Below, one piece after another: positions 18,683 through 38,759 of a stretch of DNA of 64,000 nucleotides. A program made the position numbers and the translations under genes. Position 1 is the first letter of the stretch. Every line of letters begins with the position of its first letter. A model generated the notes under the pieces. That model saw only the letters and a list, made by a program, of their open reading frames with translations, did no database searches and had not been told where the DNA came from. This DNA comes from Burkholderiales bacterium LSUCC0115 (GTDB lineage: Bacteria; Pseudomonadota; Gammaproteobacteria; Burkholderiales; Burkholderiaceae_A). The stretch covers positions 1-64,000 of the forward strand of contig WJBW01000002.1 in assembly GCA_009646425.1 (NCBI GenBank). The letters are read 5' to 3'.

Positions 18683-19960
18683 ATGACAAACGCCCTTCCC
18701 TCGATTGCCCTGCTGGCCATTGGCCTGCCCATTCTGATTCTGCTGGTGCTGGTGTGGCGAAAGCTTGGCCAGTCTGCGCCTTCAGAGTTGCAGCAGACCC
18801 TTCAGCAGCCCTTCGATGCCTTAGGCCAGCGTCTGGACTCGTTGAACAAAGAGCTCATCGCCATTCGGGCGGTCACCGACAACCAGACCAAGACCCAGGA
18901 AGTCCGTTTTCAGTCCCTCACCCAGCAGATCCAAGACAGCCTGGAGACCAGTCGTCGAACCATCAACGAGCGGCTTGGCGAGATTCAACAAGACAACGCC
19001 AAAAAGCTAGAAGACATGCGCAAGACCGTGGACGAGAAGCTGCAGTCCACCCTAGAAGAAAGACTCGGTGCGTCGTTCAAGATTGTGTCCGAGCGACTCG
19101 AGCAGGTTCACCGTGGCCTAGGCGAGATGCAGTCGCTGGCCTCCGGCGTGGGCGACCTCAAACGCGTGCTGACCAACGTGAAGACGCGGGGCACCTGGGG
19201 CGAGATTCAGCTCGAGGCCATGATCGAACAGGTGCTCACCGCCAACCAGTACGCCAAGAACATGGCTACGCGTCCCGGCAGCAGCGAGCGCGTGGAGTTC
19301 GCGATTCGATTCCCAGGGCGTGACGAAGACTGCCCGGTCTGGCTGCCCATCGATGCCAAATTCCCCATGGAGGACTACCAGCGCCTGATCGAGGCGCAGG
19401 ATCAGGCCGACCTGGCCGGCATCGAGCAAGCCGGCAAAGCCCTGGAGAATCGCATTCGGCTCGAGGCCAAGACCATTGCCGACAAGTATTTAGAGCCGCC
19501 GCACACGACGGACTTTGCCGTGCTGTATCTGCCCACCGAGGGCTTGTACGCAGAAGTCATTCGTCGCCCCGGCCTGGCGGACAGCCTGCAGCGCGACCAT
19601 CGGGTGACACTCGCTGGGCCCACCAACCTGCTGGCCCTGCTCAACAGCCTGCAGATGGGCTTTCGCACACTGGCCATTGAGCAGCGGTCCTCCGAGGTCT
19701 GGCAGGTCTTGGGCCAGGTCAAAACAGAGTTCGGCAAGTTCGGTGCAGTCATCGAGGCCACTGAGAAGAAGTTGCAAGAGGCCAGCAACAAGTTCAGCGA
19801 GGTGGGTCGTCGCAAGCGGGCCATCGATCGCAGCCTCAAAGAGGTCGAGGCGCTGCCGATTGCCGGTGCAGGGGTGGCCGCCGGGTCAGCGTCTCTGCTG
19901 GGTGACGACTTGGACGATTCCGATGACGCTGACCGAGATGGGGACAGCCCGAGGACCTAG
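18683..19960 (+). CDS. rmuC: DNA recombination protein RmuC
   Basis: A 425-residue RmuC-type protein. An N-terminal membrane anchor (residues 5-25) is followed by a long coiled coil (about 35-150). The PD-(D/E)XK-like nuclease domain has TRGTWGEIQLEAMIEQVL, EFAIRFPGRDEDCPVWLPID and AKFPMEDYQRL. RmuC limits recombination at inverted repeats in E. coli; the biochemical activity is still inferred from the fold. The tail is very acidic (DDLDDSDDADRDGD). The operator or promoter is probably shared with the small membrane gene just upstream. Confidence 0.93.
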   Translation: MTNALPSIALLAIGLPILILLVLVWRKLGQSAPSELQQTLQQPFDALGQRLDSLNKELIAIRAVTDNQTKTQEVRFQSLTQQIQDSLETSRRTINERLGEIQQDNAKKLEDMRKTVDEKLQSTLEERLGASFKIVSERLEQVHRGLGEMQSLASGVGDLKRVLTNVKTRGTWGEIQLEAMIEQVLTANQYAKNMATRPGSSERVEFAIRFPGRDEDCPVWLPIDAKFPMEDYQRLIEAQDQADLAGIEQAGKALENRIRLEAKTIADKYLEPPHTTDFAVLYLPTEGLYAEVIRRPGLADSLQRDHRVTLAGPTNLLALLNSLQMGFRTLAIEQRSSEVWQVLGQVKTEFGKFGAVIEATEKKLQEASNKFSEVGRRKRAIDRSLKEVEALPIAGAGVAAGSASLLGDDLDDSDDADRDGDSPRT

Positions 19961-19971
19961 GAACTGAGGGC

Positions 19972-20000
19972 AAAAAAAGCCCCAGAACCAGTCTGGGGCT
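19972..20000 (-). terminator. Intrinsic terminator reading leftward
   Basis: On the minus strand AGCCCCAGA pairs with TCTGGGGCT (9-bp stem, 5-nt loop) and is followed by seven T. The T-run exists only on the minus strand, so it ends a leftward transcript. The only candidate for that transcript is the small RNA at 19972-20088; rmuC runs the other way. Confidence 0.85.
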
Positions 20001-20088
20001 GTAAGCCATTCCAATCGATCGAGGAGGAGGATCGTGTTTGGTCTGGAAGGAGGAGACAACATGCTGATCGAAGCTCGATCAACGTATA
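19972..20088 (-). ncRNA. Candidate small RNA with anti-Shine-Dalgarno hairpin loops (CuckooRNA-like)
   Basis: Between rmuC and tRNA-Gly the minus strand can form four hairpins in a row. The first is TGATCGA-GCT-TCGATCA (20081-20065). The second has a GTCT/AGAC stem around loop CCTCCTTCC (20057-20041). The third has a CGATC/GATCG stem around loop CTCCTCCTC (20034-20016). The last is the terminator above. Two CU-rich loops complementary to ribosome binding sites, flanked by small stems and ended by an intrinsic terminator, is the layout known for the alphaproteobacterial CuckooRNA (alpha-r14/CcsR) family. Homology to that family is inferred from layout only. The 5' end is approximate and no clear promoter was found. 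Confidence 0.6.
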
Positions 20089-20260
20089 CATTTCACCTCT
20101 TGCCCTGCCGCTACAGGCTGAGCCGTTTTGTCCAACCCATTCAAGTTTTTTGAACGTAATCGGTTTTTTCGAAAAATCAGAGCCTTAGAAAACCTTTTTC
20201 AGCACAGGGCTAGTTTTTCCCAGGGGTTTCCATTAGACTACCGCTGGTCCCACCGTTTCT

Positions 20261-20334
20261 GCGGGCGTCGTTCAATGGCAGGACCTGAGCTTCCCAAGCT
20301 CAAGACGTGGGTTCGATTCCCATCGCCCGCTCCA
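20261..20334 (+). tRNA. tRNA-Gly (CCC)
   Basis: The cloverleaf has acceptor GCGGGCG/CGCCCGC, anticodon arm TGAGC-TTCCCAA-GCTCA giving anticodon CCC, T-loop TTCGATT, discriminator T and an encoded CCA at 20332-20334. It reads GGG glycine codons. It stands alone between the small RNA candidate and rhlE. Confidence 0.95.
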
Positions 20335-20409
20335 AAACTTGTTGTTAAACCCTGCTGCCCCATGCGCTGATTGATTTCCTTGTTTTAGGGCGGCTCACAG
20401 AAAGCCACC

Positions 20410-22041
20410 ATGAAATCTTTCGCCGATCTCGGTCTAGCCGAGACCATTGTGCGTGCTGTTGCCGCTGAAGGTTACACACACCCCACTCCCATTCAGGCCG
20501 GGGTAATCCCCGCCATGATTCAGGGCCAAGACGTTTTGGGCATCGCCCAGACCGGTACTGGCAAGACCGCAGCCTTTGTGCTGCCCTTGCTGCACAAGCT
20601 TGGCGCTGACAACCCCAACCGCATGGCACCTCGCATGCCCAAGAGCTGCCGAGCCTTGATTCTGGCCCCAACCCGTGAGTTGGCTGGCCAGATCGTGGCC
20701 AGCATCCAGACCTACGGCAAGTTCGCTCGCCTCACCACGGCCCTGGTCGTTGGTGGTGCCCGCGCACTGCCCCAGATCAAGGCCCTCGCCCCAGGCGTGG
20801 ACATCCTGGTAGCCACACCTGGCCGTCTGCTCGACCACCTGCAGGCCAAGCATGTTCGACTGGACCAGGCTCAGGCCATTGTTCTAGATGAAGCCGATCA
20901 GATGATGGACCTGGGCTTTCTGCCGGCCATCAAAGACCTGCTCTCTCGCCTGCCCAAAGAGCGCCAGACCCTGCTGCTATCGGCCACCATGCCCAAAGAA
21001 ATCCGCGGCCTGGCCGATCAGTTCCTGCGCAACCCACTCGAAGTCAAAGTGGCCGCCGAGAGCAAGCCCATTGAGCGCATCGAGCAAAAGCTGGTCATGG
21101 TCGACTCGGGCAAGAAGCCGGAGGCCCTGATTGATCTGCTTGCCGACCAAGCCATTACCCAGGCCATCGTCTTTACCCGCACCAAGCATGGCGCTGACCG
21201 CGTCGAGAAGCTGGTTCGCAGCTACGGCCACTACAGCATGGCCATTCACGGCAACAAATCCCAAGGCCAACGTGACAAGGCCCTGCTGGCCTTCCGCCAA
21301 GGCAAGGTCAAGATTCTGGTCGCCACCGATGTCGCAGCCCGCGGCATCGACGTCGACAACGTGAGCCACGTCTTTAACTACGACCTGCCCAACGTGCCCG
21401 AAGCCTATGTCCACCGTATCGGCCGTACCGGTCGCGCTGGACGCAGTGGCATTGCCGTCTCACTGTGTGACAGCACCGAGATTGGCCTGGCCATTCAGAT
21501 CGAGCGCCTCACCGGCTGCAAGCTGATCCCCGATGAGCTGCGCAACCAGCAGCGTCGCGGGACTGGCAAACCCGGTGCCCGACCCGCCAGTCGTGCCGGT
21601 GGCAAGCCACAAGGTCGCTACCAAGGCAAACCCGCTGCTGGCGGCAAGCCGTTCGGTGCTAAACCCTTTGGCGATCGACCAACCGGTCCACGCCCTGAGC
21701 GCAGCTTTGAGCCCAGGACTGCTGCTGGTGAGGGATCTGCAGAGGTCAAGCCTTTTGCCAAACCCTTCGCAAAGCCAGGCTCCAAGCCCTTTGCCAAACC
21801 TGCTCACGCGGGCGCCTCCGGCGCACCGGCTCGAGATGGCAAGCCCTTTGGCAAGCGCGAGGACAGGCCAGCCGGCAAAGCCTTTGGCAAGCCTTTTGCC
21901 AAGCCCGGTGCCAAACCTGGCCAGTCCGGATCGGGCCACAAGCCCCGTCCTGCCGGTGCTGCAAGCGGCAACGGCGCAGGCGGCAAGACCTTTGGTGGCA
22001 AGCCCAGCTTTAACCGTGGCGATGTCAAACGAGCAGCCTAA
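20410..22041 (+). CDS. rhlE: DEAD-box RNA helicase, RhlE type
   Basis: A 543-residue ATP-dependent RNA helicase. The motifs in order are: Q motif region (HPTPIQAGVIP), motif I AQTGTGKTAAF, Ia PTRELAGQI, Ib TPGRLLDHL, II DEADQMMDLGF, III SATMPKE, V DVAARGIDV and VI HRIGRTGRAGR. After about residue 390 the protein becomes a long Lys/Pro/Gly/Phe tail with repeating KPFGK/KPFAK units, probably RNA-binding. It is expected to act in ribosome assembly or mRNA turnover. The tail is prone to length variation. The stop overlaps the next gene by 20 bp. Confidence 0.92.
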   Translation: MKSFADLGLAETIVRAVAAEGYTHPTPIQAGVIPAMIQGQDVLGIAQTGTGKTAAFVLPLLHKLGADNPNRMAPRMPKSCRALILAPTRELAGQIVASIQTYGKFARLTTALVVGGARALPQIKALAPGVDILVATPGRLLDHLQAKHVRLDQAQAIVLDEADQMMDLGFLPAIKDLLSRLPKERQTLLLSATMPKEIRGLADQFLRNPLEVKVAAESKPIERIEQKLVMVDSGKKPEALIDLLADQAITQAIVFTRTKHGADRVEKLVRSYGHYSMAIHGNKSQGQRDKALLAFRQGKVKILVATDVAARGIDVDNVSHVFNYDLPNVPEAYVHRIGRTGRAGRSGIAVSLCDSTEIGLAIQIERLTGCKLIPDELRNQQRRGTGKPGARPASRAGGKPQGRYQGKPAAGGKPFGAKPFGDRPTGPRPERSFEPRTAAGEGSAEVKPFAKPFAKPGSKPFAKPAHAGASGAPARDGKPFGKREDRPAGKAFGKPFAKPGAKPGQSGSGHKPRPAGAASGNGAGGKTFGGKPSFNRGDVKRAA

Positions 22042-36753: not shown

Positions 36754-37059
36754 ATGATTCCCGGAGAACTGATACCGGCCGACGGTCAGATCGAGCTGAA
36801 TGTCGGGCGTCCAAGTATTGAGGTCGCCGTCACCAACCGCGGCGATCGCCCCGTACAAGTCGGGTCTCACTATCACTTCCACGAAGTCAATCAGGCTCTC
36901 TCATTCGATCGCGAAAGGACCCGGGGATATCGACTGAACATTGCGGCCGGTACAGCTGTGCGCTTTGAGCCAGGCCAAAAGAGAACCGTCTCTTTGGTAG
37001 CACTCGGCGGAGACCGGATTGTTTTCGGCTTCCAAGGCCGAATTATGGGGGCGCTCTGA
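36754..37059 (+). CDS. ureB: Urease beta subunit
   Basis: A 101-residue UreB. The start [16 protein letters not shown] at 36754 is chosen by homology. It has [20 protein letters not shown] and the Gly/Phe-rich end [11 protein letters not shown]. It forms the structural trimer with UreA and UreC. Its TGA overlaps the ureC ATG (ATGA type), suggesting coupled equimolar synthesis. Confidence 0.97.
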
Positions 37060-38759
37060 TGGCCAAGATGACCAGACGCGCTTATGCGGAGATGTTCGGA
37101 CCGACCACCGGTGACCGTGTTCGATTGGCCGATACCAATTTAGTGGTCGAGGTCGAGAAGGACTTCACCACCTATGGCGAGGAAGTGAAATTCGGCGGTG
37201 GAAAAGTTATCCGAGATGGCATGGGCCAAAGCCAACGCCTATCAGCCGACTCAGCCGATACTGTTCTGACCAACGCGTTGATCATTGACCACTGGGGCAT
37301 CGTCAAGGCGGACATTGGCATCAAGAACGGGCGCATCTCAGGTATCGGCAAGGCGGGAAACCCGGATATCCAGCCCGGTGTGTCGATTGTCATAGGACCC
37401 GGCTCGGAGATTATCGCCGCAGAGGGCATGATTGTGACGGCGGGTGGGATTGACTCACACATCCACTTCATCTGTCCCCAGCAGATCGAGGAGGCTATCT
37501 CCAGTGGTATCACCACGATGCTTGGCGGTGGCACCGGGCCGGCAACGGGTACCTTTGCCACCACCTGCACACCCGGCCCCTGGCACATCCACAGCATGCT
37601 GGCCGCAATCGACAGTTTCCCCATGAATATTGGGCTCCTAGGGAAAGGCAATGCCAGCAGACCCGAGCCACTCAAGGAACAGATCCGTGCGGGTGCGATT
37701 GGTCTCAAGCTTCACGAAGACTGGGGTACCACACCGGCCGCAATCGACAACTGCCTATCGGTGGCGGAGGAGATGGATGTTCAGGTTGCGATTCACACCG
37801 ATACGCTCAATGAGTCTGGTTTTGTCGACGACACCATCGCAGCCTTCAAGGGTCGAACTATTCACACCTTTCACACGGAGGGGGCTGGCGGAGGTCACGC
37901 GCCCGACATCATCAAGGCAGCCTCGCTTCCGAATGTCCTTCCCTCCTCCACCAATCCCACCATGCCGTTTACGGTCAACACCATCGATGAGCACCTGGAC
38001 ATGCTCATGGTCTGTCATCACCTAGACGCCTCGATCGCTGAGGACATCGCCTTTGCTGAAAGTCGAATTCGACGAGAAACGATTGCCGCAGAGGATATCC
38101 TCCACGATCTCGGCGCTTTCTCGATGATGAGCTCGGACTCCCAGGCCATGGGCCGGGTTGGTGAGGTCATTGTGCGAACTTGGCAGACGGCCCACAAGAT
38201 GAAGGCCCAGCGCGGCAGTCTGTCGGGCGACAGTGCGCAATCAGATAACGAGCGCGTCAAACGCTACATCTCGAAGTACACGATCAACCCTGCTGTTACA
38301 CATGGGATGAGTCACCTGGTTGGCTCAGTAGAGGTCGGCAAGTTGGCCGACCTGGTGGTCTGGCGCCCGGCCTACTTTGGCGTCAAGCCCACTTTGGTCT
38401 TGAAGTCTGGAATGATCGCCTGGGCCCTGATGGGTGACCCCAATGCGTCCATTCCGACCCCACAACCTGTTCACATGAGACCCATGTTTGGGGCATACGG
38501 GAGGGCGCTGTCGACCTCTATCACTTTCGTCTCTCAGGCAGCACTTCACAGCCCCTCCATTGCGGCGTTGAACTTAACCAAAACACTCTCTGCCGTTCAC
38601 TCCTGTCGTGGCGTAACCAAGGCGGACATGGTTCACAACAGCTGGCAGCCCAACATCACGGTAGACCCCCAGACCTATCTGGTCCATGCCGATGGTGAGT
38701 TGCTGGTCTGTGAGCCAGCCAAGGAATTACCAATGGCGCAACGGTATTTCCTGTTTTAG
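37059..38759 (+). CDS. ureC: Urease alpha (catalytic) subunit
   Basis: A 566-residue UreC with a complete active site. His134 and His136 (GGIDSHIHF), the carbamylated Lys217 with His219 ([10 protein letters not shown]), His246 (VAIHTDT), the nearby [16 protein letters not shown] histidine and the catalytic flap (MVCHHLD) are all present at the classical numbering. It binds two nickel ions and hydrolyses urea. The C-terminus PMAQRYFLF is canonical. Nothing suggests decay, unlike the upstream transporter gene. Confidence 0.98.

Follow-up and report, generated by a model that had tools for sequence, protein, structure and literature searches.

A predicted minus-strand small RNA gene with two anti-Shine-Dalgarno sites in the rmuC/tRNA-Gly interval of a betaproteobacterium

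The interval between rmuC and tRNA-Gly

We analysed a stretch of 64,000 nucleotides (hereafter the window) from a betaproteobacterium, in which an sRNA-like gene with two anti-Shine-Dalgarno (anti-SD) stretches lies alone between rmuC (Pfam RmuC, 260.1 bits) and tRNA-Gly, as an earlier note on this DNA had claimed. The Pfam-confirmed gene of a DEAD-box helicase lies beyond the tRNA gene. The features, in window coordinates, are:

18683..19960, plus strand: rmuC, converging on the sRNA gene
19972..20083, minus strand: whole putative sRNA gene, its extent pieced together from its parts; long form about 112 nt, processed form about 87 nt
19972..20000, minus strand: intrinsic terminator, a 9-bp stem (20000-19978) and a U-run to 19972
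20006..20046, minus strand: middle hairpin, with CCA/UGG, CCAA/UUGG and CGAUC/GAUCG stems and internal loops
20021..20029, minus strand: site 2, anti-SD loop CUCCUCCUC of the predicted fold
20047..20058, minus strand: site 1, anti-SD tail UGUCUCCUCCUU, linear, with no pairing in the predicted folds
20063..20083, minus strand: 5′ hairpin GTTGATCGAgctTCGATCAGC, 9 pairs, ahead of the CU tail
20261..20334, plus strand: tRNA-Gly (ccc), diverging from the sRNA gene

Judged from the sequence, the minus-strand sRNA gene predicted here is very probably real, and we infer a putative 5′ end at 20058 for its processed form. The stem TGATCGA/TCGATCA that the earlier note had placed ahead of the CU-rich loops is present on the minus strand and extends to 9 pairs (20083-20063); in the window DNA, TGATCGA-gct-TCGATCA is a clean palindrome, and the 5′ hairpin may be the start of a long transcript or, instead, a DNA palindrome (operator). 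The terminator was likewise correctly described as leftward only, its T-run being on the minus strand alone. A search of both strands of 19900-20420 gave no sigma-70-like promoter, and minus-strand ORFs of at least 20 aa within the rmuC-tRNA gap or reaching into it are all short (21-58 aa).

Both CU tracts had been described as closed loops. This holds for site 2, where a perfect 5-bp stem, CGATC/GATCG, closes the loop CTCCTCCTC (20029-20021, minus strand). For the first tract one can draw a 4-bp stem, GTCT[CCTCCTTCC]AGAC (in RNA, GUCU[CCUCCUUCC]AGAC), on the window sequence, but the minimum-free-energy fold lacks this stem, and it is broken in G002, a genome of the same genus, where the right arm is AAAC. 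Because of these two observations we treat site 1 as a linear tail instead of a closed loop, and the models predict it unpaired at 1.0 in the window and at 0.7-1.0 in G002.

CTCCTCC is rarer in the window than expected from shuffles (6 copies vs. 13.55), and the two copies at the sRNA locus start 26 bases apart. When a pair was defined as two starts 7-60 bases apart (both motif and test having been chosen with the site already in view), a pair with a terminator after it was found once in the window and in none of 200 dinucleotide shuffles; without the terminator, a pair occurred in 14 of 200 shuffles. The folding z-score was -3.39 for 123 nt and -3.07 for the 87-nt form, and none of 200 shuffles folded as well as the latter.

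Conservation in the genus and in the order

A DNA search of 41 genomes returned the sRNA in two, the window's own and G002, in which the gene order around it is the same. The sRNA body is identical to that of G002 in 79 of 87 columns (90.8%) and positions 20059-20083 in 24 of 25 (96.0%), compared with 101 of 177 (57.1%) upstream of the sRNA, 948 of 1278 (74.2%) in rmuC, and 22 of 61 (36.1%) in the last 61 columns of rmuC; tRNA-Gly is identical throughout (74/74). The sRNA is thus preferentially conserved relative to its flanks in one sister genome. Loops and terminator, whose conservation in close relatives had been proposed as a check, are kept in this one relative, site 1 being identical and the loop of site 2 one C shorter. 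Within the otherwise diverged stretch 20084-20260, blocks around TTCAAAAAA-TTGAA-GG-TTGGACAAA are common to the two genomes; they may serve either the sRNA or tRNA-Gly as promoter or regulator sites.

All 59 countable pair cells of the window and G002 are paired, including all 12 countable pairs of the middle hairpin (one further cell is lost to an alignment gap). Compensatory change, which had been suggested as a test, is seen in one terminator pair, A-U in the window and G-C in G002; it gains no statistical support from two sequences, for which pair counts do not exceed those of shuffles (268 of 500 as high). We therefore argue for selection from the contrast in identity and not from covariation. 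One pair of the 5′ hairpin is U-A in the window and U-G in G002, which breaks the DNA symmetry of the palindrome and keeps the RNA pair.

RmuC is matched in five of 11 genomes of the genus, in one of them with only 24% identity, and the sRNA is present in two of the other four. Of the remaining two, G009 has no more than about 55 bases between the last aligned rmuC codon and tRNA-Gly, which leaves no room for the sRNA, and G007 has no tRNA in the stretch examined beside rmuC. We also built a model of the window's sRNA (R1) and searched it in 300 genomes of the order and 26 of the family. It matched 16 of the 300 at E <= 0.01, with more than 100 bits only in the window's genome and G002 and 26-38 bits in the rest; by eye, seven of these weak matches (L049, L051, L053, L054, L055, L064, and L065) are other CU-rich sRNAs, and the others have a hairpin and terminator in common with it. 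In the family, five of 26 genomes matched at E <= 1, two of them above 100 bits. An exact-pattern scan of genome contigs returned the G002 contig as its sole match, the window's own records possibly having been excluded.

These comparisons also bear on readings of the locus other than an sRNA gene. On the plus strand, GGAAGGAGGAGACAACATG might be the ribosome binding site of a 30-aa ORF (20034-20153), the minus strand being its mere complement, and a strong SD does stand at good spacing before the ATG; the product, however, resembles that of G002 for its first 8 residues only (MLIEARST vs. MLTEARST) and then diverges, it has no Pfam match, and the terminator T-run sits on the minus strand, all of which makes this reading very improbable. 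A small protein gene on the minus strand is harder still to credit: a 58-aa ORF from 20062 and a 44-aa ORF from 20091 both open over the CU tail, but neither has a Pfam match, and the former agrees with G002 for about 11 codons only, the missing loop base then shifting the frame. It is unlikely, if less so, that the locus is an unexpressed relic whose 5′ repeat serves as a DNA operator for another purpose. Such a view fits the lack of a recognisable promoter in the region searched and the clean palindrome in the window; it sits poorly with stems and CU tracts kept while the flanks diverged, and with a G002 substitution that spares the RNA pair at the cost of DNA symmetry.

Predicted mechanism and targets

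The explanation we prefer, with a probability of about 0.7, is a stand-alone minus-strand sRNA of the double-hairpin type that masks Shine-Dalgarno sites, probably with Hfq. Sites 1 and 2 resemble the CCUCC end of 16S rRNA. Transcription would start near 20083 and end near 19972, and cleavage ahead of UGUCUCC would leave about 87 nt. Both site 1, in the linear tail, and site 2, in the loop, would then pair with strong SDs on particular mRNAs and keep ribosomes from binding, probably together with Hfq, the choice of target being made by pairs outside the CU core. The genome has hfq (100.6 bits).

Searching the window's own genome for complements of site 1 and site 2 a short distance upstream of an ATG returned 7 and 6 matches, respectively, at 12 distinct sites, and reversed control patterns gave none. 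Three of the 12 precede Pfam-confirmed starts, those of acs, amtB, and pufL; of the other nine, one is the complement of the sRNA itself, and eight were dismissed by eye as falling within longer genes or ahead of short ORFs. The acs leader is predicted to form a duplex of -27.0 kcal/mol and 17 pairs with the 18-nt stretch GCAUGUUGUCUCCUCCUU of the long form: a run of 13 pairs, a single bulge, and a further 4 pairs that cover the start codon. The processed 12-nt tail leaves it 11 contiguous pairs (-20.6). As background we took 51 window ORF starts, computed with the long stretch. The best of these 51 starts (each taken at the first ATG, a crude choice) reaches -20.8, so that only acs stands out as a predicted target; amtB (-20.5) and pufL (-17.2), also with the long stretch, do not beat this background. 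acs would accordingly be the best candidate, with amtB and pufL weaker, and all such matches are to be read as predictions only, because strong SDs match any anti-SD RNA. The pufL-like photosynthetic reaction-centre gene (L137, own-genome region C2:260545; Photo_RC, 323.8 bits) suggests that the organism is probably an anoxygenic phototroph.

Comparison with known anti-SD RNAs

Rfam matches to the window's sRNA were taken at relaxed thresholds, and none passes its cut-off. The best sub-threshold match is to the Betaproteobacteria toxic sRNA family RF02278 (29.8 bits, gathering cut-off 50), followed by anti-hemB RF02837 (23.2 bits, cut-off 49.5) and RF02344 (20.8 bits, cut-off 58.8). Elsewhere in the window, 5_ureB_sRNA matches 37211-37494 on the minus strand (115.9 bits), opposite the urease alpha-subunit gene (37059-38756, plus strand), and this match is more likely to reflect conserved coding sequence than an antisense RNA. 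Weak scores for RF02278 and anti-hemB mean little, since at E <= 0.1 they are also obtained in 6 and 8 of 14 control genomes, respectively, none over cut-off. RF02278 exceeds its cut-off in 59 of 150 genomes of the order and in none of the 14 controls; at E <= 1e-5 there are up to nine matches in one genome of the order and, again, none in the controls. Another place in the window's genome, C2:547905, scores higher against RF02278 (30.8 bits) than the sRNA itself and looks like a chance match to a terminator.

The earlier note had called the gene CuckooRNA-like and raised either analogy or homology. Analogy is a fair description: RF02344 (CuckooRNA/ar14/CcsR/NfeR1) likewise has unpaired anti-SD motifs, probably with many targets, and the window shares two CU-rich anti-SD stretches and a terminator with it. 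Homology to this family has next to no chance of being right, and membership was rejected on score, motif, and context. The covariance search that had been proposed for alpha-r14/CuckooRNA gave only the third-best Rfam score for this sRNA, and no match over cut-off in any of the 26 family genomes. RF02344 is alphaproteobacterial; passages of the reports describe a three-hairpin form with motif CCUCCUCCC (PMC10746234) and, for the CcsR type, a link to DUF1127 (PMC10253847). The window's sRNA has neither the three CCUCCUCCC motifs of NfeR1 nor the DUF1127-linked cluster of CcsR: one hairpin carries the CU motif, as CUCCUCCUC, rather than two or three with CCUCCUCCC, and none of four small ORFs that lie in the gap or overlap it encodes DUF1127 or has a Pfam match at E <= 1. 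An ar14 match elsewhere in the genome (C2:312729, 28.4 bits) was discarded as two ordinary hairpins after the end of an ORF, without CU loops.

The genome holds further anti-SD RNAs. Its anti-hemB copy (C10:15826, 56.8 bits) is over cut-off, and anti-hemB is present in 15 of 26 family genomes; like the window's sRNA it has a CUCCUCC hairpin loop and a terminator, with CGUCUCC ahead of the hairpin in the own-genome copy. At C1:398692 of the window's genome (G000) lies an RNA of UGUCUCCUUGCAG type (32.2 bits vs. RF02278), a type found in six of 11 genomes of the genus at 29.1-33.3 bits, always below the RF02278 cut-off. It resembles the window's sRNA in its UUGU-UGUCUCC start, a hairpin just upstream, a middle hairpin, and a terminator, and differs in its locus and in having no CU loop in the middle hairpin; the inverted repeat just upstream (6-7 pairs in all six) is no stronger than in shuffles of the same bases. 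Among its loci (L022, L024, L025, L026, L027, and L036), TTGCAA-N17-TGYAAT promoter-like boxes can be seen by eye in L025-L027. A canonical RF02278 RNA lies upstream of rplM in three (G001, G004, and G005) of the five genomes of the genus with a full rplM match, and is absent there from the window's genome and G003. Finally, AGTCTCCTCCTTCACCGG followed by a terminator occurs at L030 1456-1513, minus strand (own genome C1:248655-248712), and at L034 (G002 C1:16517-16574), directly after the stop codon of a dihydrolipoamide-dehydrogenase-like gene (Pfam pyridine nucleotide-disulphide oxidoreductase); this locus has GTCTCCTCCTTC in common with site 1 and is possibly a 3′-UTR-derived anti-SD sRNA.

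With at least three anti-SD sRNA loci in one genome, the choice of targets by near-identical anti-SD sites becomes testable. The comparisons suggest that the anti-SD layout, a linear and a looped complement of the ribosome binding site ahead of a terminator, persists as stem, locus, and copy vary by lineage, some loci falling below the Rfam cut-off. If the acs and pufL predictions are true, an anti-SD sRNA would be tied to phototrophy outside the alphaproteobacteria. As a long shot, the window's sRNA could have been gained recently by a photoheterotrophic betaproteobacterial lineage, in which it would replace the absent canonical rplM-linked copy and, with two SD-masking sites on one RNA, tie together carbon (acs), nitrogen (amtB), and light harvesting (pufL), a functional parallel to the alphaproteobacterial CcsR system of separate origin.

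No description of the window's sRNA was found in the literature entries and passages searched. Passages on the RF02278 RNAs of Burkholderia cenocepacia (ncS03, ncS05, ncS27, and ncS62) call them "double-hairpin RNAs" whose CU-rich unpaired stretches are predicted to cover ribosome binding sites, and report for ncS27 a processing site and slower planktonic growth on over-expression (PMC5688073, PMC4603805); slower growth on over-expression is also reported for RF02278 family members (PMC5688073). The related S17 of Bordetella pertussis binds Hfq and is cut, with RNase E implicated, to a form of 67 nt whose 5′ end lies near the CU stretch; it represses one target through its 5′ site, as compensatory mutations in E. 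coli show, and is hardly toxic in that host (PMC11722255). RF02278 RNAs are also listed in Herbaspirillum (PMC7011215). According to these passages, both ncS27 and S17 are made as longer RNAs and then cut at the CU stretch, and the S17 cut between GU and GU resembles the putative one between GU and UG in the window.

Whether the window's sRNA descends from such RNAs or arose independently at the rmuC locus, converging on the RF02278 layout and the same mechanism, was weighed with a model of our own (R2) built from 35 canonical RF02278 members, none of the window's kind. With default filters R2 ranks the sRNA 22nd of 53 rows, at 22.2 bits and an E value of 0.048 over 286 kb; with filters off it gives 11.8 bits (E 1.6), and an unrelated place in the window scores 11.2. 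Independent origin is favoured by these scores, by a middle stem unlike the canonical UCCAC/GUGGA, and by the neighbours, neither rmuC nor a DEAD-box gene nor a tRNA being found at 50 RF02278 loci checked up to 1.5 kb on each side. Against it stand a start that matches UGUCUCCUCC exactly at the corresponding position (0.17 such occurrences expected in the window), followed by CU loop and terminator, and the rank of RF02278 as best sub-threshold Rfam match. Independent origin is a serious contender that falls somewhat short of an even chance; the filters-off result led us to set these odds, and those of the preferred reading, where they are.

Descent from an RF02278 RNA is plausible. The commonest form among the 35 aligned members, UGUCUCCUCCAYCCUCCUCCUUUGGUGGAUU followed by a terminator, has one linear and one looped anti-SD site, as does the window's sRNA. 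The two differ in length (87 nt vs. about 60-71 nt in the 35 members) and in the stem, UCCAC/GUGGA directly after the CUCC tail in RF02278 and CCA..CCAA..CGAUC, longer, interrupted, and of other sequence, in the window. At least 6 pairs just upstream are found in 12 of the 35 canonical members vs. 7.2 expected from shuffles, and a 5′ hairpin is at most a trait of a subset. In both, the RNA is a stand-alone gene that starts with UGUCUCCUCC and is unpaired up to the hairpin, one hairpin (in most aligned members) bears a CUCCUCC-type loop, and the second hairpin is an intrinsic terminator. The window's sRNA is probably a divergent variant of these betaproteobacterial double-hairpin anti-SD RNAs, seen so far in two genomes.
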